A stretch of DNA of 64,000 bases from Halobacteriovorax marinus (GTDB lineage: Bacteria; Bdellovibrionota; Bacteriovoracia; Bacteriovoracales; Bacteriovoracaceae), in NCBI GenBank assembly GCA_002163155.1, contig MAAO01000002.1, forward strand, positions 124,001-188,000, given 5' to 3'. Below the pieces are notes generated by a model, which saw only the letters and a program-made list of their open reading frames with translations, was not told the DNA's origin and did no database searches. Position 1 is the first letter of the stretch. The number at the start of each line of letters is the position of its first letter. Shown piece after piece: positions 31,213 through 45,458 of the stretch. Both the position numbers and the translations under genes were made by a program.

Positions 31213-31296
31213 ATTCTATAGTCTCTAGATAAAGTTAAGAATTCCGTATTTGATTTAATTTCATAAATAAACTCCGAATAGTTATTGAGGAGTTTT

Positions 31297-32283
31297 ATGA
31301 AGAAAATATTATTAATTATAGGTTTGATTTCTCTTGGAATAATTTACAAGGTAAATTTCACTAATAGTAGTTCTAAAGAAAAAAGCAAAATTCGTATAGC
31401 TATTTTTTCTTGGTCTAACTCTAAGGGATATATTGAAAATATACAATCTTTCAAGGGATCCCTAGAGAAGTATGGACTTGTTAATAATAAGAATATAATA
31501 TTCAAAGAATATCTCTCAAATACTAGTCGAAAGAAGCAAAATGAGTTGGCTATCGAGGCAAGGTCGTGGAAACCAAACCTAATATACTCTTTAACGACTC
31601 CTGGTACATTAATCGTAAAAGAACATTTTAAATCAATTCCGATTGTTTTTTCTATTGTGACTTATCCTGTAGAAGCAAAAATTATACATTCACTTAAAAA
31701 TTCAACTAATAATCTTGTAGGGACGAGGAATTATGTATCTGCAGAGACTCAAATTAAATTATTACTAAAAATAAAACCTAAAACTAAGCTCGTAGGATTT
31801 GTTAGAAGAGATATTGAATCAAATTCAAATATACAATTCAAAGACTTTAAGAAAAACCTTTTAAAGAGAGGTATCGAAATTTTCGATATTAAAGCAAAGA
31901 ATCTAAATAGTCTAAAATATCAGTTATCAAATATATCTAAAAAAATGGATGTCTTATATTCTGCCTGCGATACATTGTTGCAATCTGGAGGAGAGGAATT
32001 AGTTATAGAGCATTCACTTAGTAATAATATACTTCCTTTTTCTTGCAATAAGAGAGGAGTTCGAGATGGTTCCTTATTTGGAATTGTTGTTGACCTTTCA
32101 ACTATAGGAAGTCTTTCAGGAGAAAAGGCTGCGAAGATAATTTTAGAGAAATTGACGCCAAGTGAATTAGTTTCTGAATCAACCAGTAAGGTGAATATCA
32201 TTTTAAATTTTAGAACTTTAAAAAAATTAAAGCTAACAATTAGTAATGAAGTTTTATCAAATGTTAGTGAGGTCATTTATTAG
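31297..32283 (+). CDS. ABC-type substrate-binding protein (PF04392-like), sensor partner
   Basis: The ATG at 31297 follows GAGG and starts an N-terminal hydrophobic segment (KKILLIIGLISLGIIYKVNF) that exports or anchors the protein. The body matches the ABC_sub_bind class: IRIAIFSWSNSKGYIENIQSFKGSL, KPNLIYSLTTPGTLIV, IPIVFSIVTYPVEAKII, NNLVGTRNYVS and VLYSACDTLL. The next gene starts one base inside its stop (TAGTG) and encodes a histidine kinase. This suggests the protein binds a small molecule in the periplasm and passes the signal to the kinase rather than feeding a transporter. Confidence 0.85.
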   Translation: MKKILLIIGLISLGIIYKVNFTNSSSKEKSKIRIAIFSWSNSKGYIENIQSFKGSLEKYGLVNNKNIIFKEYLSNTSRKKQNELAIEARSWKPNLIYSLTTPGTLIVKEHFKSIPIVFSIVTYPVEAKIIHSLKNSTNNLVGTRNYVSAETQIKLLLKIKPKTKLVGFVRRDIESNSNIQFKDFKKNLLKRGIEIFDIKAKNLNSLKYQLSNISKKMDVLYSACDTLLQSGGEELVIEHSLSNNILPFSCNKRGVRDGSLFGIVVDLSTIGSLSGEKAAKIILEKLTPSELVSESTSKVNIILNFRTLKKLKLTISNEVLSNVSEVIY

Positions 32284-33914
32284 TGAAAAAAAATAAGGAA
32301 TTTACTCGTTATTTACTACTTCTTAGTATTCCGATTATGGGAATTACAGTGTTTTTTAATATTATGTTTGTAGATATTTCTTCCTTTTCAATTGGCTACT
32401 TTAACTCTGTTGAGAGATTGAATCTTCAGATGAGACAAAATACAAAGATATATGAAAAGGTTATCAGCTTAGGGGAAGTGAACTCAGAAGTTGAACTAAA
32501 TAAAAAATACAACGATCTAAAAACATTAATCAAATTTAAGGTTAAAGAAAAAATCTCATCAGAGTTGGAAAAACTTCAAATTGAATTATTAAATGAGCTA
32601 AATCAGTTTCATAAAATTCAAGAATTGATGAACAGTAGAGAAATTACAAGTACTAAGTTCTCAATACTACATAATATTCACACCCACAGATTAAAGGGCC
32701 TTACCCTTCAGATTCAGAATTTAATCTTAGGGAGAGTTTCGAGCTTGTCTATAAGAGGTAAAAAAAGGATCCAAAGTTTAAAAAATACAAATACACTAGT
32801 TTCCTCTCTCTCTGTGTTTGGAATAATTATTGTGGTAATAGCTTTCATGAATATGAATGAACAAATTCTGATGAGAGAGTATTTAACTTCAGTTATAAAT
32901 AAAATTTCTGACGCGCTAGTCATAGTAGATGATGATAATAAAATAATTAAAATGAATGATAAGGCTAAGGTTATATTCGGTAATCAGCTCATTGGAGAAA
33001 ATGTTTTAAAAATTATAAAAGGATTCTCAAAGAATAAAGTTAATGTCGAATTAGAAACAACTTATATAGATGAAAATAAATCCAAAATACCACTCCTTTA
33101 TACAATTAATAATTACCAGGTTAACTATAAAACTATACATCACGTTGTTTTAGCAAAAGATATGAGAGTACAGAATAAGTTAAAGGGAGATCTCTTTAGT
33201 GCTGAAAAACTTGCATCCGTTGGAGAGCTCGCTGCTGGAGTTGCACACGAACTGAATACTCCTTTAGGATCAATTTATCTTGTACTTAGTCAAATTAAAG
33301 AGGCATTTAAAGAGTACAAGATTGAAGATGTTGATTTACTCGAAATGGTAGATGATTCGTTTGATTCTGCAAAAAAAATGGGGAAGATTATCTCTGGACT
33401 ACAGCTAGTGTCCAGAAGACCATCTGAACAGAAATCCCTAGTAGTGATAGATTCTATTATAGAGAGTGTCTTAAGTATATGTGAGAGTAATTTTCTAAAT
33501 AATAGAATTGAACTTGAAGTTAAGTTGCCCAAAGTGCCTGTCGAAATCCTTTGTAATCCTGCTCAAATTGGACAAGTTCTTGTTAACCTTCTAAATAATT
33601 CAAAAGACGCCGTAGAACTAATAGAACATAAGAAAATAGTTATTGAAGTCAGTGAATACAATGAAGAAGTTATTATTCTTGTAAAAGATAATGGACCAGG
33701 TATAAGTGAAGAAAATTTATTAAATATGTATGAACCTTTTTTTACGACGAAACAGGTTGGCAAGGGAACAGGTCTAGGACTTAGTATAAATAAAGGTATA
33801 GTCGAATCACATAAGGGAAAACTTGTATATTTACGAGATAATGAAATGACAGTTTTTAAAATTACAATCCCCATAATTCAAATTGATGAAATTGATCTTG
33901 GAGAAGCTGTATGA
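32283..33914 (+). CDS. Membrane sensor histidine kinase
   Basis: Two transmembrane helices (about 10-30 and 173-190) frame a 140-residue periplasmic helical sensor domain. A PAS-like domain follows (about 200-300: [24 protein letters not shown]), then the phospho-acceptor His322 in [17 protein letters not shown], the N-box [12 protein letters not shown], the G1 box DNGPGIS and the G2 box [10 protein letters not shown]. It is a complete kinase. It starts with GTG, overlapping the binding protein stop by one base, and its own end overlaps the REC-HD-GYP gene (ATGA), so the four genes form one operon. Confidence 0.95.
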
Positions 33915-35281
33915 GTGAAGAAAAGCTAAAGATCAAAGTTTTAGTTGTTGAAGATGATAAGAACTTTAGAAAAGTTCTTTGCTCAATACTAAAGCGTAAT
34001 GGGTTTTCTATTGTTGAAGCTGATAATGGGCGAACTGCATTAGATGTCCTTGCAGTTGATTACATCGATATCATTGTTTCTGATGTCAAAATGCCCGATA
34101 TACACGGGATTGAATTACTTCATAGAGTTAAACGGAAATACGATATACCTTTCATCATGATGACTGGGTTTAGTAAGCTTATTGAAACTACAGAAGCCCA
34201 TGAACTTGGAGCTTCTTATTTTTTGGCAAAACCGTTTATAGGTGAAGAAGTTATAGAGGCCATTGATTATGTACTAAATACGAGTCACGATAGAAATTCT
34301 TTACGTGGTGATGAGAGAGACTTCATGAGAGTAGAGATCGAGTCATTCTTAACAGGTAGTGAATTCTCTCATCCAGTATTTTTAAAACTCAATGATCTTA
34401 AGATTATAAAAATAGCTCACGAAGGAGAAGATTTAACAAGGGAGAGGTTAAAGCAATTAAAATCAAAAGGTGTCGATTCTCTTTATATCAAAACTCAAGA
34501 CTTTAAAGAATTCTTGAATATTAAAAATGCTTTATGTGAGAAAATCTCTGATTCATCTCATGTTAGTAAACAAAGAAAGATAGACTTTTATACAAGAGTA
34601 GAAGAAATTGCTCTTCGGTACATTTTCAAAACGGTTACAAATGACAAAGAAGTATTTGAAATTGCTTTAAATAATTTGTTACGAACGATAAAAATTGTTA
34701 TGGATGATTCACTTGCTTTTGAAACACTAATGTCATTTAGTAAGAATTCTCCATCCATTTTTAATCATTCCATTGCTGTCGCAATTCTTTCCGTTGCTCT
34801 TATTCAAAAAAAGGGGTGGGAGAGTGCTAAAACTCTGTTTTTAGCATCAGCCGGTGGCCTCTTTCATGATATAGGAAAAAAGGATTTAGTAAAAGGTATT
34901 GACGAGATTGAATTTGATATGATGACAAAAGAACAAAGGCTTGATTATGAATCACACCCCGAACTAGGTGCAAAAATATTAAGAGAAATTGCTTTCTTTC
35001 CAGACGAAGTTGTTCAAATTGTTTTACATCATCATGAATTAATCAATGGAACAGGGTTTCCTAAAGGTATATCGAGAGTGAAGATTCATCCAATCTCACA
35101 ATATGTGGCAGTTGCTGATAAATTTCTTAACGTACTCTATGGTTCACATGGTGAAGAACCTTGCTCAGATATCCAAGAGGTCTTAGGTCAATTTAAAAGT
35201 GTTAGAACAATCTATAATAAGGAAGCCATTGACCTCTTAGAGAATTTATTTTCTTTTCATGGAAAAAGGAAGGTCTCTTGA
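33911..35281 (+). CDS. Response regulator with HD-GYP c-di-GMP phosphodiesterase domain
   Basis: The receiver (residues 8-125) has D58 in IIVSDVKMPD, Thr in MMTGF and the Lys in FLAKPF. A middle domain (about 135-215: HPVFLKLNDLKIIKIAHEGE, VDSLYIKTQDFKEF) is shared with the protein at 12004-13404. The HD-GYP domain has HSIAVAILS, LFHDIGKKD (about 317-325), HPELGAKIL and the signature HHHELINGTGFPKG (about 372-385); G-F-P replaces G-Y-P, and the metal-binding residues are kept, so it is probably active in breaking down c-di-GMP. Translation is coupled with both neighbours. Confidence 0.93.
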   Translation: MSEEKLKIKVLVVEDDKNFRKVLCSILKRNGFSIVEADNGRTALDVLAVDYIDIIVSDVKMPDIHGIELLHRVKRKYDIPFIMMTGFSKLIETTEAHELGASYFLAKPFIGEEVIEAIDYVLNTSHDRNSLRGDERDFMRVEIESFLTGSEFSHPVFLKLNDLKIIKIAHEGEDLTRERLKQLKSKGVDSLYIKTQDFKEFLNIKNALCEKISDSSHVSKQRKIDFYTRVEEIALRYIFKTVTNDKEVFEIALNNLLRTIKIVMDDSLAFETLMSFSKNSPSIFNHSIAVAILSVALIQKKGWESAKTLFLASAGGLFHDIGKKDLVKGIDEIEFDMMTKEQRLDYESHPELGAKILREIAFFPDEVVQIVLHHHELINGTGFPKGISRVKIHPISQYVAVADKFLNVLYGSHGEEPCSDIQEVLGQFKSVRTIYNKEAIDLLENLFSFHGKRKVS

Positions 35282-36600
35282 AAAAAATCCTTTTATGTGA
35301 AGACGATAATGTTCTGCTAAAAGTTATGGCAAGATCCTTGAAAAGGGTAGGTTTTGCTATTATAGCTCTCAGTAGTGCTGAAGATGTTTTGCAGGAAGAT
35401 TTTTCTCACCTCAGTTTGATCATTATAGATATAGGACTTCCTGGAATGAGAGGTGATGAACTTCTAAAGAGACTTATATCAAAAAATATTGAGATTCCCA
35501 TTATTATTATCTCAGGGAATAGTGATGTCTCCTTAGCAGTAGAGTGTATGAAGAATGGGGCATATAATTACTTAGAAAAACCATTTGAAGAAAACTATCT
35601 TATCTCAAGTGTAATTGATGCCATTGGTGATAATGAAATTGAAGCAACCACAAATGAGTATAATTATGAATATTTTTCACGTTCTAATGAAGTAAATGAA
35701 TTGACCAAAATTATAAAGAAAATAGCAGGAGAAAATATTTCTGTTTTCATGTATGGCGAGTCTGGTAGTGGAAAAGAATTTTATGCCAAAGAAATTTATA
35801 AAAGCTGGCATAGGCCAGATGTTCCCTTTGTAAGCGTTAACTGTCCAGCTATACCAGACTCTCTTGCTGAATCTGAGTTGTTTGGTCATGAGAAAGGATC
35901 TTTTACAGGTGCAGATAAACTAAAAATAGGAAAGTTTGAGTTTGCTAATAATGGAGTTCTATTTCTAGATGAAATTGGTGATCTTAGTTTAGAGATTCAA
36001 GCTAAACTTTTACGTGTATTAGAAGAAAAAGAGATTGAAAGAGTTGGTTCTAATGAGAAAATTAAGTTAAATATTCAATTGATATCTGCAAGTAGTCAAG
36101 ATATCAAGTCACTTATTGCTGAAGGTAAATTTCGATCTGATTTATATTATAGGCTTTCTGATATTGAACTAAAAGTACCTCCTTTAAAATCACGTATTGA
36201 GGATATTGATTTTCTAGTCAGTCATTTCATATCTCAATACGAGAAAGAAACAGGAAAATTAGGTAAGACATTTAGTGAGAGTTCATTAAATATTTTAAAA
36301 TCTTATGACTGGCCTGGAAATATAAGAGAACTTAGATCAACAGTGAGAAGAATGATGATACTTTCTAAAGGGAATGTAGTAACTCCTGATGACCTAAGCG
36401 TTGGTCACTTTGGAAGTCTCTGCTCTCATATGGATACCAGTAAAAAAATAGCAAGAGTTTCGGGACAAATACAAAATCAAGAGTTAGAACTTATTCGAAA
36501 CTCAATAAAGACTCAGAATGGAAATTTAACTAAAGTATCAAAAGACTTAGGCATTAGCCGTGCTACCTTGTATAGAAAAATAAAAAAGTATGGAATTTAG
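35278..36600 (+). CDS. NtrC-type sigma-54-dependent response regulator
   Basis: The receiver (residues 3-115, phospho-Asp D51) is followed by the AAA+ domain with Walker A GESGSGKE (160-167), a GSFTGA loop (207-212, Ser for the usual Ala, which some active members have), Walker B VLFLDEIGD, and the motif DWPGNIRELRS, then a Fis-type helix-turn-helix (GNLTKVSKDLGISRATLYRKIKKYGI). It should activate sigma-54 RNA polymerase. The TTG start overlaps the stop of the previous gene. It meets the fibre-like operon tail-to-tail with a 4-base overlap. That operon has a sigma-54-like promoter at 40573-40590, so it is the most obvious target. Confidence 0.94.
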   Translation: MKKILLCEDDNVLLKVMARSLKRVGFAIIALSSAEDVLQEDFSHLSLIIIDIGLPGMRGDELLKRLISKNIEIPIIIISGNSDVSLAVECMKNGAYNYLEKPFEENYLISSVIDAIGDNEIEATTNEYNYEYFSRSNEVNELTKIIKKIAGENISVFMYGESGSGKEFYAKEIYKSWHRPDVPFVSVNCPAIPDSLAESELFGHEKGSFTGADKLKIGKFEFANNGVLFLDEIGDLSLEIQAKLLRVLEEKEIERVGSNEKIKLNIQLISASSQDIKSLIAEGKFRSDLYYRLSDIELKVPPLKSRIEDIDFLVSHFISQYEKETGKLGKTFSESSLNILKSYDWPGNIRELRSTVRRMMILSKGNVVTPDDLSVGHFGSLCSHMDTSKKIARVSGQIQNQELELIRNSIKTQNGNLTKVSKDLGISRATLYRKIKKYGI

Positions 36601-37637
36601 TAGGGTGATACGGTAATTGTAACCGTTCCTTGAAAATCTCCAGGAGTTATTTCGTAAAGGTTAGTAATATGAGAAAAAACATCTACGTAGTGCAGGCTGT
36701 TATGTGTTTGAGCTTGAGGTGTTATAATTGAATAATTTGACTCATCTAGTTGGTGAGATGTTTCAATATCAACGTATCCATTAGTCAAACTTGTAACCTC
36801 TCCTGTTATAACAACTCCACAATTTGACTCAATCCTAAAATCTCCACGACCTTTAAAGTTAACATTATATTGTTGGTTAAGCTCAAGAGGATACATTACA
36901 ATATTCTCTACTGATTGAACTTTTGCAAATTTTGCAACGTCCATTGTTACCATTCCTGTGGCCTGGTTTAAGAGCTGACTAGAATTTATATTAGGAAGAA
37001 GCTCTGTTTGTTCACTCATTGAAGTAATAGGAGTAGTGAATATTGAGAAAATTAAATCATTATAATCCTTATCTCCGCCATTCCAAAGATCCTCAAATCC
37101 AATGACGACCTTTTGCTCCTCTTCATCGTAAGAAGAAACAGTATGTTTAATTCCATCAATGTTTCGCTGCTCTTCTGTATAAAAGTAATGCCCTTCATTG
37201 TGATTTCTATAAAACCCATTAGGCTTTATATAAAAACCAAATGTAGTATCTTTAGAATATGTACCTAGATTAAAGGTATCTCCTATCTTTAAAGGACCAC
37301 CGCTTCCTCTCATTGATGCATTCTTGATAATCTCTTGTCTTTGAATATTTTCATTCTCATCTATTGTATAAAGACCAAAACTATTTTTAAACCCTGCTCC
37401 TTCCCATAGAAAAGTAGTGTACAATTCAGCATCTTCATTCAAAGTAAAAACAGCTTCTTGTGAGCTATTGAGAAAAGATTCATCTATCTCTTTATATTCA
37501 GGTAGCATGAGGTTTATTCTCTCCGTAAATTCAGGTGAAATTTCGAAATTTGTATGAGAATACTCACTGGAATATGAATAAGCTAGAACTTGAGTATTTA
37601 GTAAGAAGAATATGAAACAACTCAATATTAATCGCAC
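36597..37637 (-). CDS. Secreted DUF4114 protein with C-terminal fibre-subunit domain (putative tip adhesin)
   Basis: A signal peptide (to VLAY, about 19) precedes two parts. Residues 80-200 look like DUF4114, with the typical end GFEDLWNGGDKDYND (180-193). Residues 228-346 are homologous to the small subunit at 40083-40526: MVTMDVAKFAKVQSVENIVM against AIVTLEVAKFAKISGLENFV, FRIESNCG against FNLESNAA, SHQLDES against AYELDEG, and the ends QGTVTITVSPY and SAQIVITVAAL. The two-domain layout (binding domain plus subunit domain) is like FimH-type tip adhesins. The GTG start overlaps the secretin gene by 10 bases. This is the last gene of the operon. Surface adhesion is inferred. Confidence 0.82.
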   Translation of the reverse strand: MRLILSCFIFFLLNTQVLAYSYSSEYSHTNFEISPEFTERINLMLPEYKEIDESFLNSSQEAVFTLNEDAELYTTFLWEGAGFKNSFGLYTIDENENIQRQEIIKNASMRGSGGPLKIGDTFNLGTYSKDTTFGFYIKPNGFYRNHNEGHYFYTEEQRNIDGIKHTVSSYDEEEQKVVIGFEDLWNGGDKDYNDLIFSIFTTPITSMSEQTELLPNINSSQLLNQATGMVTMDVAKFAKVQSVENIVMYPLELNQQYNVNFKGRGDFRIESNCGVVITGEVTSLTNGYVDIETSHQLDESNYSIITPQAQTHNSLHYVDVFSHITNLYEITPGDFQGTVTITVSPY

Positions 37638-38860
37638 AATATTTCCGGTTTAATTAAAAAGATGACTTCTGATGTCTCTTTATATTTCTCTTCGTGTTTA
37701 AAGAACCAACCGAGAAGTGGGATTTCACTAATAATCGGAATTTTAGTCACTTGTGTTTTGTCTTTACTCGTAATCATTCCACCTATAAGTAATGACTCAT
37801 TTTTCCTAACTCGTATTGTTGTTGATAATGAATGTGAGGTAACCTTTCGTCCCTCTATTTCTCCCATTTCTAAATGTTCAATCTTAAGGTTTATATTATC
37901 TTTTTCAGTTATTGAAGGTGTTATTTTTAGATTAATTCCTGCCTTCAGTGGGATTATATGACCCTTCTTTCTAATCGTTTGATTCATATCACTTACACTT
38001 GAAGCAAAAAGAGCTGAAAGACCATCTTGAGTAATAATGGTAGGGTTTGCTTTAACTAGAACATCTCCAGTCTCTTGCAGTGCTCTCATATTTTTTACGA
38101 AGGAACTTAAACCTTCCCGAGTTAAAGAAACAAGCTGTCCTAATTGACCATTTCTGTAAGGAGAGCCCATTAAGCCACTTAGAATTTTATTCCCATGATT
38201 TGAAACTTCACTAATTGATATATTTAATTTAACTTGTCTTCTGGCCCTATCTGCAAAAGCAAGCTGATTCATGATATCAATTAATATTCTTCTAGGTGCT
38301 GTGATTGTGAGAACGTTTCTTGAGTTATCTCCAACAAGATATTCTCGGTAGAGAGGATTTATCTGATTGATGATTTCTTCTGGAGTTAAATTCTTTGTAT
38401 AGTAATTATGATTATAAGCAAGTCTCCACCATGAAGGAGCTTTATTCATCACAACACCAACATAGTAAAAGTCATTCTCAAATTTGTAATCGAATGGACC
38501 TGCTGATGTAATCATTTGTAAAGATTCTAGGAATGATTTTTCATTAATATTTACGGTAATTAGTCCCGTTACTGACTCACCAAACACTATTGGAATATTT
38601 GAAATTGTCGAAAGCTCTAACAAAGCCTCTCTCACATCTAGATCTAAAAATTCAAAAGTATACTTCTCTTTATCTAAATAATTCTTTATTCCTAAGTTTT
38701 CTTCATTAAACTTATTTGATTTTTCCTTTTCTATATACTCCCCACAGCTCTTAATCTCACTGTCTAGCAGATTAGAGCTTTTTAGTGAGTTCTTTTTTAC
38801 GTTAACTGTTGAGCATGAAATAAGAGTCATTAGTAATATAATGTGGATTAATGATTTCAT
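37628..38860 (-). CDS. Short secretin, lipoprotein
   Basis: The N-terminus is a lipoprotein signal (IHIILLMTLISC). A STN/N0 domain (FLDLDVREALLELSTISNIPIVF, then GLITVNINEKSFLESLQMI), one N1-like domain (YTKNLTPEEIINQINPLYREYL, NVLTITAPRRILIDIMNQLAFAD) and the secretin core follow, with the late signature IPIISEIPLLGWFFKHE and EVIFLIKPEIL. At 410 residues it is short compared with PilQ or GspD. Secretins form multimeric gated channels in the outer membrane. It sits between the chaperone-like and adhesin-like genes with overlaps or an 18-base gap, so it probably serves this fibre system; it could alternatively serve a type IV pilus encoded elsewhere, but no such genes are near. Confidence 0.92.
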   Translation of the reverse strand: MKSLIHIILLMTLISCSTVNVKKNSLKSSNLLDSEIKSCGEYIEKEKSNKFNEENLGIKNYLDKEKYTFEFLDLDVREALLELSTISNIPIVFGESVTGLITVNINEKSFLESLQMITSAGPFDYKFENDFYYVGVVMNKAPSWWRLAYNHNYYTKNLTPEEIINQINPLYREYLVGDNSRNVLTITAPRRILIDIMNQLAFADRARRQVKLNISISEVSNHGNKILSGLMGSPYRNGQLGQLVSLTREGLSSFVKNMRALQETGDVLVKANPTIITQDGLSALFASSVSDMNQTIRKKGHIIPLKAGINLKITPSITEKDNINLKIEHLEMGEIEGRKVTSHSLSTTIRVRKNESLLIGGMITSKDKTQVTKIPIISEIPLLGWFFKHEEKYKETSEVIFLIKPEILCD

Positions 38861-38878
38861 TGAATCCTCCAGTAAGAA

Positions 38879-40015
38879 TTACTTTGTAGGAATTATACTA
38901 ATTGGTAAAGTTGTTAGTTTAATTCCTTTATTCATAATACTTATCTGCTTTGTTACTAGTTCGAAATTGATATCATGAGAAATTTTAATAATTGCATACT
39001 TATATTTCATTGCACGTAAATTTATTTCTCTTGGGTAAATACTAATATTAGAATCTTTCTTCTCGTTAATTGGAAACGAAAGCTTCATTTCATTATTTGA
39101 ATTATTTGATATTTTAATTCTATAACTTGTTTGCTTTTTGGGTCTTACCTTAATTTTAATATCCTTTGGTAGAATAGAAACTCTCGGTGCAGTGCGAGTT
39201 GCTGATTCTTCTTCTTTTGTAGTTTTAATTGTTATTTTTACTTTTTTTATAACACTTTTCTTTCTATTTAGTTTTGAAAGAATTGTGACTTTATAATCTC
39301 CGGGCATTAAGTTCTTTTTGAACTTTCCAATAAGGTTTACTTTACTCTTTGGAAAGACGATGGACTCATCTGCTCCTTTTTGCCAAGATGAAAGGGATTT
39401 TAGAATTATTTTTTCAATTAGTTTTCCTTTACTATTTCTTATATAAGCGAAAGTAACACTTTTAAAGTCCTTGCTCGTTGTGTTTTCAATTTGGCATTGA
39501 ATGACTTTGTTTCCTTTTAACTTTTTCACTTCTGCCGATCTTAGTATTGCTCTTTCATAGACTCTCTTGTCACTTAGTTGTAATTTGAATACAACTGCAT
39601 ATCTGACATGAATACCAACTCCCTTTTTGGCACCACCCTTATCCTCTTCAATCATTACAGCATAAACTTTGGTTTCTTTTTTCTTTTTTGGAAACTTAAC
39701 CGTTCCCTTAATTCTAATGAGGCCAGATCTTTTTATGCTATATATATTTTTTTCAAGAATAATAGTTTCTTTATCTAAAGATTCAGTAAAGTCTAATTTT
39801 CCTGATATGTTTTGACTTGCTTCAAAAATTGTCGCTTTGATTTTCACATTTCCCTTTGCTTGGACATTTATTTGAAAAGACTCTTCCTTTTGACCAGAAT
39901 TTGTATACTCAAAATATAGAGGCTGAACTGATAGATCAGCAGCGAAAACTTCTTGTGCTAGGAATATGAGTATTGTTGAAAGCAGTAAATTTAGATTTTT
40001 AGAAGCAGGTCTCAT
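38879..40015 (-). CDS. Exported chaperone-like beta protein
   Basis: TAAGGAG precedes the ATG at 40015, which starts a signal peptide ending in VFA (about 25). The mature protein opens with ADLSVQPLYFEYTNSGQKEESFQINVQAKGN, the kind of first strand seen in pilus chaperones, continues with KVYAVMIEEDKGG and IHVRYAVVFKLQL, and has at least three Ig-like repeats (QIENTTSKDFKSVTFAYIRN, YRIKISNNSNNEMKLSFP). At 378 residues it is larger than usual FimC-type chaperones (about 230). It is very rich in Lys. Its place between the subunit and secretin genes supports a role in holding subunits in the periplasm; this is inference, as no donor-strand motif can be verified. Confidence 0.7.
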   Translation of the reverse strand: MRPASKNLNLLLSTILIFLAQEVFAADLSVQPLYFEYTNSGQKEESFQINVQAKGNVKIKATIFEASQNISGKLDFTESLDKETIILEKNIYSIKRSGLIRIKGTVKFPKKKKETKVYAVMIEEDKGGAKKGVGIHVRYAVVFKLQLSDKRVYERAILRSAEVKKLKGNKVIQCQIENTTSKDFKSVTFAYIRNSKGKLIEKIILKSLSSWQKGADESIVFPKSKVNLIGKFKKNLMPGDYKVTILSKLNRKKSVIKKVKITIKTTKEEESATRTAPRVSILPKDIKIKVRPKKQTSYRIKISNNSNNEMKLSFPINEKKDSNISIYPREINLRAMKYKYAIIKISHDINFELVTKQISIMNKGIKLTTLPISIIPTK

Positions 40016-40082
40016 TTTTATCTCCTTATTGAAAGACAGATAGGGCACTTGGCCCTATCTGATCTTCTAACGAATAGGGGAA

Positions 40083-40526
40083 TTAAAGGGCAGCAACAGT
40101 GATTACTATTTGAGCTGAGTATCCACCTGCTTCTTGGGCTGAAATTTCTCCAAGAATTGCTTCTGCACTGACTTTATGCTGTTCATTGTGAATTCCTTCA
40201 TCTGTGTCAAATGAAAGACCACCTTCATCTAATTCATAAGCAGTACTGATTGTGTTTTCTCCGTTACTTAATTGATCTCCTGTTAAAGTTACGGATACTG
40301 CGGCGTTTGATTCTAAGTTAAACATATCAAATCCACTGTATACTGAATTTGCATCACCATCTGTTGATACGGGGAGTAAAACAAAATTCTCTAGTCCTGA
40401 TATCTTTGCAAATTTGGCGACTTCTAATGTTACAATAGCATTCTTAGAATCTAATTCTGCGAAAGCAGAAGGCATAATCGTTAACAATAATGCGGATAGG
40501 GTTAAAGCTTTTAAGATTCTCAACAT
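40083..40526 (-). CDS. Small secreted subunit (putative major fibre subunit)
   Basis: A strong ribosome binding site (CGGAGG) and a signal peptide (to AFA, residue 23) start this 147-residue protein. The mature part has no Cys, is acidic and Ser/Thr-rich, and reads as beta strands: AIVTLEVAKFAKISGLENFVLLPV, AAVSVTLTGDQL, GYSAQIVITVAAL. Strand patterns at both ends suit an Ig-like subunit that could exchange strands. Its sequence recurs as the last 119 residues of the DUF4114 protein at the other end of the operon. It is first in the operon, as a major subunit would be. No named pilin family was recognised. Confidence 0.75.
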   Translation of the reverse strand: MLRILKALTLSALLLTIMPSAFAELDSKNAIVTLEVAKFAKISGLENFVLLPVSTDGDANSVYSGFDMFNLESNAAVSVTLTGDQLSNGENTISTAYELDEGGLSFDTDEGIHNEQHKVSAEAILGEISAQEAGGYSAQIVITVAAL

Positions 40527-40572
40527 ACGTTCCTCCGGTTAGTGGCCATTTAGTTAGACCTTGTGGTTTTAA

Positions 40573-40590
40573 TTGCACAAGTTGGGCCAA
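40573..40590 (-). promoter_or_regulatory. Sigma-54-like promoter of the fibre operon
   Basis: On the minus strand the sequence TTGGCCCAACTTGTGCAA has GG (40588-40587) and GC (40576-40575) exactly 10 bases apart, as in the -24/-12 consensus TTGGCACG-N4-TTGCA, with three mismatches. Transcription would start near 40563, about 37 bases before the ATG of the subunit gene. Confidence 0.5.
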
Positions 40591-40605
40591 TGATCTTTCA
40601 TTGGC
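40586..40605. repeat. Perfect 8-bp inverted repeat at the -24 box
   Basis: GCCAATGA (40586-40593), loop TCTT, TCATTGGC (40598-40605). One arm overlaps the -24 element of the sigma-54-like promoter of the subunit gene. It could be a binding site for a protein that blocks or assists that promoter. Confidence 0.5.
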
Positions 40606-40737
40606 TAAGTCTTTATATTCATTTTTAGCTTAAGTCTTTATCGAGAGAAAGTGTTTCACAATGACACACTATATATTTCCAACTGTCTCATATAGAGATT
40701 TTTAAAATCTTTAGTTTCATTTTTCAATGACTTATTC

Positions 40738-40754
40738 TTGGTACAAGTCTTGCG
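40738..40754 (+). promoter_or_regulatory. Sigma-54-like promoter of the LamG-like lipoprotein gene
   Basis: TTGGTACAAGTCTTGCG has GG at 40740-40741 and GC at 40752-40753, spaced by 10 bases as required, with mismatches only at three less fixed positions. The predicted start of transcription is about 40765, directly at the ATG (40766), and no ribosome binding site is visible, so the mRNA might be leaderless. It could be a chance match. Confidence 0.4.
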
Positions 40755-40765
40755 GTAATATAAGT

Positions 40766-42118
40766 ATGAAAACTCTATTTTCACTTCTGATATTAATTTA
40801 TTTAGTTTCGTGTGGTATTAATCAAAAATATCCTTCTGAAGAATCTACTTCATCTCAATCTAGCGGCCCTCCTTCTAATCCTGAAGATTGTTCAAATGTA
40901 GAAATAAATGATCTCATCAGCTTTTATTTAGACATAGATGGCGATGGCTTAGGTGACTTTAACCAAAGTTCTAAATTTTGTGAGTCAAGTGATACTAGTG
41001 GATATGTAAACAACTTTGCTGACCTTGACAACAATGATGGTCCCTTAGGAGATCTTGATGGTGATGGAGTTATCAATTCTGATGACCCTGACTTTATTCT
41101 CCATCCAGGATTTATTGGAGCTTTTACTTTTGATGGAGTTGACGATTACTTATCATTAGATGCTGGAGTCTTAGCTCAACACATTATGATTTCAAATGAA
41201 AGTCATTTCTTAGTTAGTATGATGGTTAATACTACAAATACTGTCGACAATTCTTTATGGAGTCTCTTACATTTTGAAAATAGGGGGATTGGTCTTATAG
41301 TTAACCAACTAGATATGGTGCAAAACTTTAATGAACTTACATTATTCTTTGCGGTTAATTCAAATAACAAGAGTTTTACTTTTGCTCCTAGTGTTGATGT
41401 TTGGAATAATCGCTTAAAAGATGGCGTTCATAAAGTAAGTCTAATGTGGATAGGTAAAACTTCTGATAATGTTTCAAGCTTTAAAGTGATGGGGTTCAAT
41501 TGGTACTGGGCTGGGGATTATGGATATATTGATGATAACGGAGATGTAATTGAAGGGGGTGAAATTAGAATCTATAGAAGTAAGAAGTCTCCTGAAGATA
41601 ATAGAAAGTACCTAATTTATAAACCTTATGATGATTTATGGCATAAGACTTCAATGCAAGACTGGAGTGAAGAAGGTAATGGAATAGATTATTCTCTATT
41701 AACTAATATTACTATTGAAGACTCTGTATCAGCTTCTGTTTCTCCCAATATTCCTTCGGGAGTGACAAGAAAAAGGAATTCTCTCATTGCTTTTATTGAT
41801 GGTGCTTATATGGGTCAATTGAATGATAAGAAAACTCTTACTAGTGAAGATGAAGCTCTTAGGATTGGTGCAAGGTCCATTAATTTGTCTCAGTACACTG
41901 AGATTGAATCCTTAAGTGAGTATGTTATAACAGATACATTAGCAATAGATGGAATTCAAGGCCTTCATTCTGCGATGGGGTTGATCGATCTAAGATCGTG
42001 GGCATTAGATAATAATAAGGATATTTACCTGTATTACCCTATGCAAGAAGATCCAACTGTAGGGGAAGTGTTAGACTATAGTGAAAATCAAGAAAACTTA
42101 GAAGCATGGAATTTCTAA
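40766..42118 (+). CDS. Lipoprotein with Ca-binding repeats and a LamG-like domain
   Basis: The ATG at 40766 opens a lipoprotein signal (MKTLFSLLILIYLVSC). Residues 45-115 contain Asp-rich repeats of thrombospondin type-3 kind (LDIDGDGLGDFNQ, GDLDGDGVINSDDPDF). After these, GAFTFDGVDDYLSLDAG begins a concanavalin/LamG-like jelly roll of about 330 residues, ending in DLRSWALDNNKDIYLYYPMQE. These domains bind sugars or proteins on surfaces. It is divergent from the fibre operon and shares its control region, so the two may be co-regulated. An upstream in-frame ATG at 40727 is unlikely, because it would place the signal peptide inside. Confidence 0.8.
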   Translation: MKTLFSLLILIYLVSCGINQKYPSEESTSSQSSGPPSNPEDCSNVEINDLISFYLDIDGDGLGDFNQSSKFCESSDTSGYVNNFADLDNNDGPLGDLDGDGVINSDDPDFILHPGFIGAFTFDGVDDYLSLDAGVLAQHIMISNESHFLVSMMVNTTNTVDNSLWSLLHFENRGIGLIVNQLDMVQNFNELTLFFAVNSNNKSFTFAPSVDVWNNRLKDGVHKVSLMWIGKTSDNVSSFKVMGFNWYWAGDYGYIDDNGDVIEGGEIRIYRSKKSPEDNRKYLIYKPYDDLWHKTSMQDWSEEGNGIDYSLLTNITIEDSVSASVSPNIPSGVTRKRNSLIAFIDGAYMGQLNDKKTLTSEDEALRIGARSINLSQYTEIESLSEYVITDTLAIDGIQGLHSAMGLIDLRSWALDNNKDIYLYYPMQEDPTVGEVLDYSENQENLEAWNF

Positions 42119-45050: not shown

Positions 45051-45458
45051 TTAAGAGAACATTTCAAAAATTTCCTTCTCAGTTAAACACTTTGTCTCTT
45101 CCTTAAAGGAGTAAAGATCTGAGCTCTTATCAATGAAGAATTGAATATCAAACTTAAAGCCTTCGTCACTCGCAAGTAGACCAAGAGGGATATGATAAAG
45201 TTCTTTTCCTTTAAATTTATAAAAGAGGTGAGTACCACATTCGCTGCAAAATCCTCTCTCTGCCCAATTCGAAGAGTTGTATCTCTTTATACTTGAGTCT
45301 TTTACAAAGCTCACATTGCTAGTATTGAGGATAGACATGAGTGGGCCACCGCCCCAGTTGCGACACATCTTACAATGACAAGCCGCGAATTCTTTCTTCT
45401 CTAATTCAAAGCTAAATTCTACTTTCTTGCACAAGCATGTGACCATGTGTTCGCTCAT
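45051..45458 (-). CDS. GFA/CENP-V family zinc protein
   Basis: The pattern CLCKKVEFSFE, CHCKMCRNWGGG, FCSECGTHLFYKF with the closing YHIPLGLL is the GFA fold, which binds one or two zinc ions through these Cys. Family members include glutathione-dependent formaldehyde-activating enzyme, but most have no known substrate, so the name should not be taken as function. The 135-residue length is normal. It is convergent with the TonB receptor gene, 8 bases apart. Confidence 0.9.
   Translation of the reverse strand: MSEHMVTCLCKKVEFSFELEKKEFAACHCKMCRNWGGGPLMSILNTSNVSFVKDSSIKRYNSSNWAERGFCSECGTHLFYKFKGKELYHIPLGLLASDEGFKFDIQFFIDKSSDLYSFKEETKCLTEKEIFEMFS

Follow-up and report, generated by a model that had tools for sequence, protein, structure and literature searches.

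What switches on the fibre operon of this Halobacteriovorax genome is the question raised by the 243-bp intergenic region ahead of it. The operon comprises, in order, genes for a subunit, a chaperone, a secretin-like lipoprotein and a DUF4114 protein. The original prediction placed a sigma-54-like promoter overlapped by a palindrome in front of the subunit gene. It proposed control by a neighboring NtrC-type activator, with possible occlusion by a second factor at the palindrome. We analyzed the locus within its window, i.e. the whole 64-kb stretch of DNA under study, which belongs to a 4.55-Mb genome (Table 1). We conclude, with a probability of about 0.8, that the fibre operon is driven by a sigma-54 promoter at positions 40590-40573 of the minus strand, that the adjacent regulatory gene run is the leading source of its activator, that a hairpin behind the subunit gene would lower expression of the genes downstream, and that the palindrome is local to the lineage.

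Table 1. Positions of predicted signals and genes at the fibre locus (window coordinates)
Feature	Position	Strand	Remarks
Sigma-54 promoter, TTGGCCCAACTTGTGCAA	40573..40590	minus	GG 40588-40587 (-24), GC 40576-40575 (-12), inferred start ~40563
Perfect 8-bp inverted repeat, GCCAATGA-AAGA-TCATTGGC	40586..40605		read 40605-40586; 4-bp loop; covers -24 GG
Candidate enhancer word, TGTGTCATTGTGA	40656..40668	minus	~93-105 nt upstream of inferred start
Divergent sigma-54-like site, TTGGTACAAGTCTTGCGG	40738..40755	plus	ahead of lipoprotein ATG 40766
Fibre subunit, 147 aa	40083..40526	minus	signal peptide by eye
Intercistronic hairpin, CAGATAGGGC-CAAGT-GCCCTATCTG	40037..40061	minus	between subunit and chaperone genes
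WxLIP/PapD-like periplasmic chaperone	38879..40015	minus	ORF called from GTG 40048; ATG 40015 more likely
Small secretin-like lipoprotein, 410 aa	37628..38860	minus	lipoprotein by eye
DUF4114 protein, probable tip	36597..37637	minus	C-terminal part resembles subunit (32%)
NtrC-type response regulator	35278..36600	plus	receiver, sigma-54 AAA+ with GSFTGA, Fis-type HTH
Receiver + HD-domain response regulator	33911..35281	plus	in run of NtrC-type gene
Histidine kinase	32283..33914	plus	in run of NtrC-type gene
ABC-type substrate-binding protein (PF04392)	31285..32283	plus	heads run of NtrC-type gene

The probable promoter and the sigma-54 motif of the genome

Read on the minus strand from 40590, where TTGG begins, the site is TTGGCCCAACTTGTGCAATT, and its GG and GC lie exactly ten bases apart, as had been predicted. 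It agrees with the sigma-54 context TGGCNC-N5-TTGC at this spacing except in the -12 box, GTGCA, which has GTGC where TTGC is expected. At sigma-54 promoters, transcription usually starts 12 nt after the GC; the predicted start therefore falls near 40563, with a leader of 37 nt. The distance of 37 bases to the subunit ATG given originally for the promoter elements holds for this predicted start and not for the -12 box, as the C of its GC lies 49 nt from the ATG (A at 40526).

The genome has an intact rpoN, a 491-aa ORF that carries the AID domain and, as recognized by eye, an RpoN box. Genome-wide, TGGCNCNNNNNTTGCW with at most one mismatch was matched 403 times, versus 110 for the reversed pattern, and 30 exact sites yielded the sigma-54 motif TTGGCAC-N5-TTGCTT. 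T directly follows TTGC in 28 of these 30, and the A of TGGCAC is present in 23. At 25 exact sites, an ORF of 60 aa or more begins within 130 nt downstream; at one other the ORF begins at 375 nt, and the remaining four have none within 400 nt. A scoring matrix was built from all 30 exact sites, and the column-reversed matrix served as the control. The candidate scores 12.06, which ranks 6th among the 127,958 strand positions of the window; with the column-reversed matrix, no window position reaches this value. By arithmetic estimate, approximately 0.011 such scores are expected by chance on the sense strand of the intergenic region. The score is lower than that of every exact site, the weakest of which reaches 16.1. 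All 30 have T where the -12 box of the candidate has G, a position fixed by how the set was built, and the final A of this box is matched in only two.

Sites with such -12 boxes recur in the genome. The class TTGGCMC-N5-VTGCWW has 11 sites including the candidate, versus none for the reversed pattern, and as the class was written so as to include the candidate, these counts show that it is real without amounting to a p-value. Four of the 11 carry GTGC and precede one paralogous family of 98-aa likely secreted proteins, two read ATGCAA and lie ahead of genes for likely secreted proteins, and at four no clear gene could be recognized by eye. One stretch (L088; G000:C8:4001-24000) holds four near-identical genes for likely secreted 98-aa proteins, each after TTGGCCC-N5-GTGCTT, and this cluster lies near a second NtrC-type gene with GSFTGA. 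A divergent site on the plus strand of the same intergenic region as the candidate scores 14.19, above the candidate itself.

A counterpart of the promoter was found in a diverged relative, G023. Among 129 genomes of the family, the operon chaperone occurs only in this genome and in G023; across the phylum, 4 of 368 genomes match it, two of them weakly or in part. The G023 subunit ortholog is 59% identical to that of the window, and its gene is preceded, 63 nt before the ATG, by TGGCCTCCAACTTGCTT (matrix score 14.4), in an upstream region that includes CTGGCCTCCAACTTGCTTT and otherwise aligns poorly with that of the window. The pattern TGGCNYNNNNNTTGCTT, which was written to include the G023 site, has 11 matches in the G023 genome versus 3 for the control, and 33 versus 2 in this genome; the 11 matches in G023 correspond to a chance of about 2 in 10,000 for such a site in a given 166-bp single-strand stretch (by arithmetic). 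This conservation ahead of the orthologous operon, in a single relative, is the best single evidence for sigma-54 control. The predicted sigma-54 promoter is thus backed by the genome motif, the variant class and the G023 counterpart, and it is with high probability real, and ordinary in kind.

The surroundings of the G023 operon show further features. A leader hairpin, TAAGGAGC-CTGAAC-GCTCCTTA, lies between promoter and subunit ATG (L003 1428-1449), holds an AAGGAG word and is absent from the leader in the window. A GFA-family gene is directly upstream of the operon in G023 (L025 7711-8118); in the window (45051-45458) its distance upstream is 4.5 kb, and genes for a lipoprotein, a carbonic anhydrase and a TonB-type receptor (by eye) intervene, an arrangement consistent with a shared locus with insertion or loss.

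The palindrome over the -24 box

The 8-bp inverted repeat described over the -24 box is indeed perfect. Since it lies upstream of the predicted start, it would act, if at all, as DNA. For the same reason it was rejected as an operon terminator, being outside the operon mRNA; the sole terminator-like call in 36500-40900 was the plus-strand reading of this palindrome.

Taken by itself, the palindrome is no more than mildly unusual. Of 2000 dinucleotide shuffles of the 243-bp region, 3.4% had an inverted repeat with an arm of at least 8 and a loop of at most 8, and the window contains 26 such repeats (nested ones counted separately), approximately 0.10 per 243 bp. One exact copy is present in the genome. 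With three mismatches 15 more places were found, versus 7 for the reversed pattern, which is an unfair control as it holds CG. The palindrome is missing at the G023 promoter, where the longest arm is 3. At 30 other strong sigma-54 sites of the genome, no inverted-repeat arm exceeds 5, and the palindrome was rejected as a genome-wide sigma-54 feature.

We consider it probable that the palindrome arose by chance or is neutral, as its frequency in shuffles and in the window, its lack of conservation and its uniqueness in the genome suggest. That it sits exactly on the -24 GG speaks against this, as does TCATTG, which occurs four times in the 243 bp (two within the palindrome) versus 0.25 expected, albeit as a word picked after being seen. 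Judged by sequence, these repeats suggest a repeated binding word. The palindrome is local to this lineage and probably dispensable for the basic switch.

The source of the activator

RNA polymerase with RpoN would form a closed complex at the -24/-12 boxes, and an enhancer-binding protein (EBP) bound upstream would hydrolyze ATP to start transcription. The leading, though unproven, source of this protein is the adjacent run of genes for a substrate-binding protein, a histidine kinase, a receiver-HD protein and the NtrC-type regulator. As the original prediction stated, the operon ends against the gene of an NtrC-type activator; the two convergent genes overlap at their stops by 4 bp. By its domains the neighbor is complete for sigma-54 activation, with GSFTGA in place of GAFTGA. 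An excerpt of a Desulfovibrio vulgaris study lists GSFTGA among the variants that would keep activity and assigns targets to two GSFTGA regulators (PMC4641369), and GAFTGA/GSFTGA is given for Cereibacter in an excerpt of another (PMC11999139). Control of the fibre operon by this neighbor is plausible on grounds of adjacency. The composition of the run suggests that a ligand is sensed outside the inner membrane.

In G023, no activator ortholog was recognized, and the best match (39%) resembles the best matches in operon-less genomes; the relative would therefore use another activator, or the gene is missing from its assembly, which has a completeness of 94 and in which the contig stops within the operon, short of any adjoining activator gene. 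No conserved run of kinase, receiver-HD regulator and EBP was seen in the stretches compared: the best receiver-HD matches elsewhere reach 33-34% (G063 and G014) and have no EBP beside them there, with the G063 contig stopping just past its receiver-HD gene.

A tenable, though less likely, alternative is that the sigma-54 promoter is activated by an EBP encoded elsewhere and common to G023, which would bind the word TGTGTCATTrTGA, while the neighbor would serve other genes. Several EBPs are present in both genomes, and the word is common to both at 12 of 13 positions and lies at a similar distance to the promoter, in G023 as TGTGTCATTATGA in the opposite orientation (weak). It occurs once per genome, which is about chance for such a word, so its weight lies in placement alone. 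Of 300 shuffle pairs, 0.7% attained the local-match score, but an equally good match was seen in 2 of 30 unrelated sigma-54 upstream regions, which makes the shared word a lead only; shuffle fractions at word lengths of 11, 13 and 16 were 0.305, 0.015 and 0.12. As a regulon-wide enhancer the word was rejected, with no enrichment upstream of the 30 sites. It is a weak candidate enhancer by sequence, and these statistics, together with the adjacency that favors the neighboring activator, count against a distant EBP.

The occlusion model, in which the promoter is activated by the adjacent regulator and the polymerase is kept off by a second factor on the palindrome, is improbable. It draws on the convergent overlap, the receiver, AAA+ and HTH domains of the activator, its GSFTGA as a variant that would keep activity, the coverage of the -24 GG and the TCATTG repeats. 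Both operator tests, of conservation and of recurrence, were negative; because the palindrome is absent at the relative and at the 30 sites, is present in a single copy and is matched in 3.4% of shuffles, occlusion is speculation, and the failure to recognize an activator ortholog in G023 also counts against the model. Least probable is a chance -24/-12 match with the operon driven by a sigma-70-type promoter farther upstream, for which one can cite the weak -12 box and two weak minus-strand pairs of sigma-70 type in the region, against the G023 counterpart, the motif statistics and sigma-70-type sites that are not in excess (14 in 36500-40900 vs a shuffle mean of 18.1).

The fibre operon and its proposed regulation

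Under the preferred reading, a sigma-54 promoter with the neighboring run as leading activator source, a second layer of control would lie within the operon. The hairpin between the subunit and chaperone genes has a z of -5.09 here and of -4.46 at the same place in G023, with a changed stem pair. It is possibly an attenuator or processing site, would reduce the expression of the three genes behind it (chaperone, secretin-like and tip), and may set an excess of subunit. The G023 hairpin (L003 1945-1974) has an altered stem plus a T run. A search of 39900-40900 for known RNA families gave a single match, far below its gathering score.

For the chaperone, the structure model (mean pLDDT 60.5) is closest to WxLIP and PapD-type chaperones, namely 9i25 (E 1.8e-10), 6k73 and 5d6h, and the chaperone profile gave one chance-level match (E 0.84) among the sequences of solved structures. 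The structure model of the subunit was discarded as unusable (mean pLDDT 35); its G023 ortholog has a weak likeness to DUF4402. Chaperone and secretin-like genes stand in the same order in G256 and in G023, where the contig ends inside the secretin-like gene. In G305 (L098), the gene of a 257-aa WxLIP/PapD-like protein has as neighbors those of a small secreted protein and of a large one of 863 aa, which was examined by Pfam and NCBIfam and is possibly an usher-type counterpart. It is a speculative and rather doubtful proposal that the operon encodes a pathway unnamed in Pfam/NCBIfam, in which the chaperone would pass DUF4402-like subunits to a secretin-like usher substitute, with a sigma-54 on-switch, a ligand-sensing relay of substrate-binding protein, kinase, response regulator and EBP, and a hairpin-set subunit excess.

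The locus resembles known sigma-54 promoters with NtrC-type activators in its GG/GC spacing, its rpoN, its genome-wide motif and its nearby activator with receiver, AAA+ and Fis-type HTH; it differs in the weaker -12 box, the inverted repeat over the -24 box and the putative assignment of the activator. In commensal Neisseria, pilE pili are under RpoN control with Nps/Npa, according to an excerpt of PMC6528607, and in both cases a surface-fibre subunit gene is under RpoN and a two-component activator, here by prediction. The fibre locus differs in that no type IV pilin was seen and in that the subunit gene is followed by those for a chaperone and a secretin-like protein. The chaperone model matches those of chaperone-usher and WxL/WxLIP systems (PDB 9i1y, 9i25, 5d6h, 6k73), which likewise have subunit and tip-like genes in one operon; in contrast to chaperone-usher systems, this operon lacks an usher gene, the place of which is taken by that of a short secretin-like lipoprotein. 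For Bdellovibrio bacteriovorus, an RpoN-like gene, bd0843, is reported in an excerpt of PMC3464611. In our literature searches, no work came up on sigma-54 regulation in Halobacteriovorax, none joining Halobacteriovorax, a two-component system and a sigma factor, and, among the matches listed, none on DUF4402 alongside a secretin or chaperone.

The analysis provides a sigma-54 motif for this Halobacteriovoraceae genome, where it precedes many genes whose products are likely secreted or at the surface, and it proposes how a rare fibre operon may be switched on, in a form that can be tested. Should the palindrome be functional, it would add a local element to a mechanism that is already known. 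The operon itself, with its chaperone, its secretin-like lipoprotein and a hairpin present in both genomes, is more interesting than its promoter.
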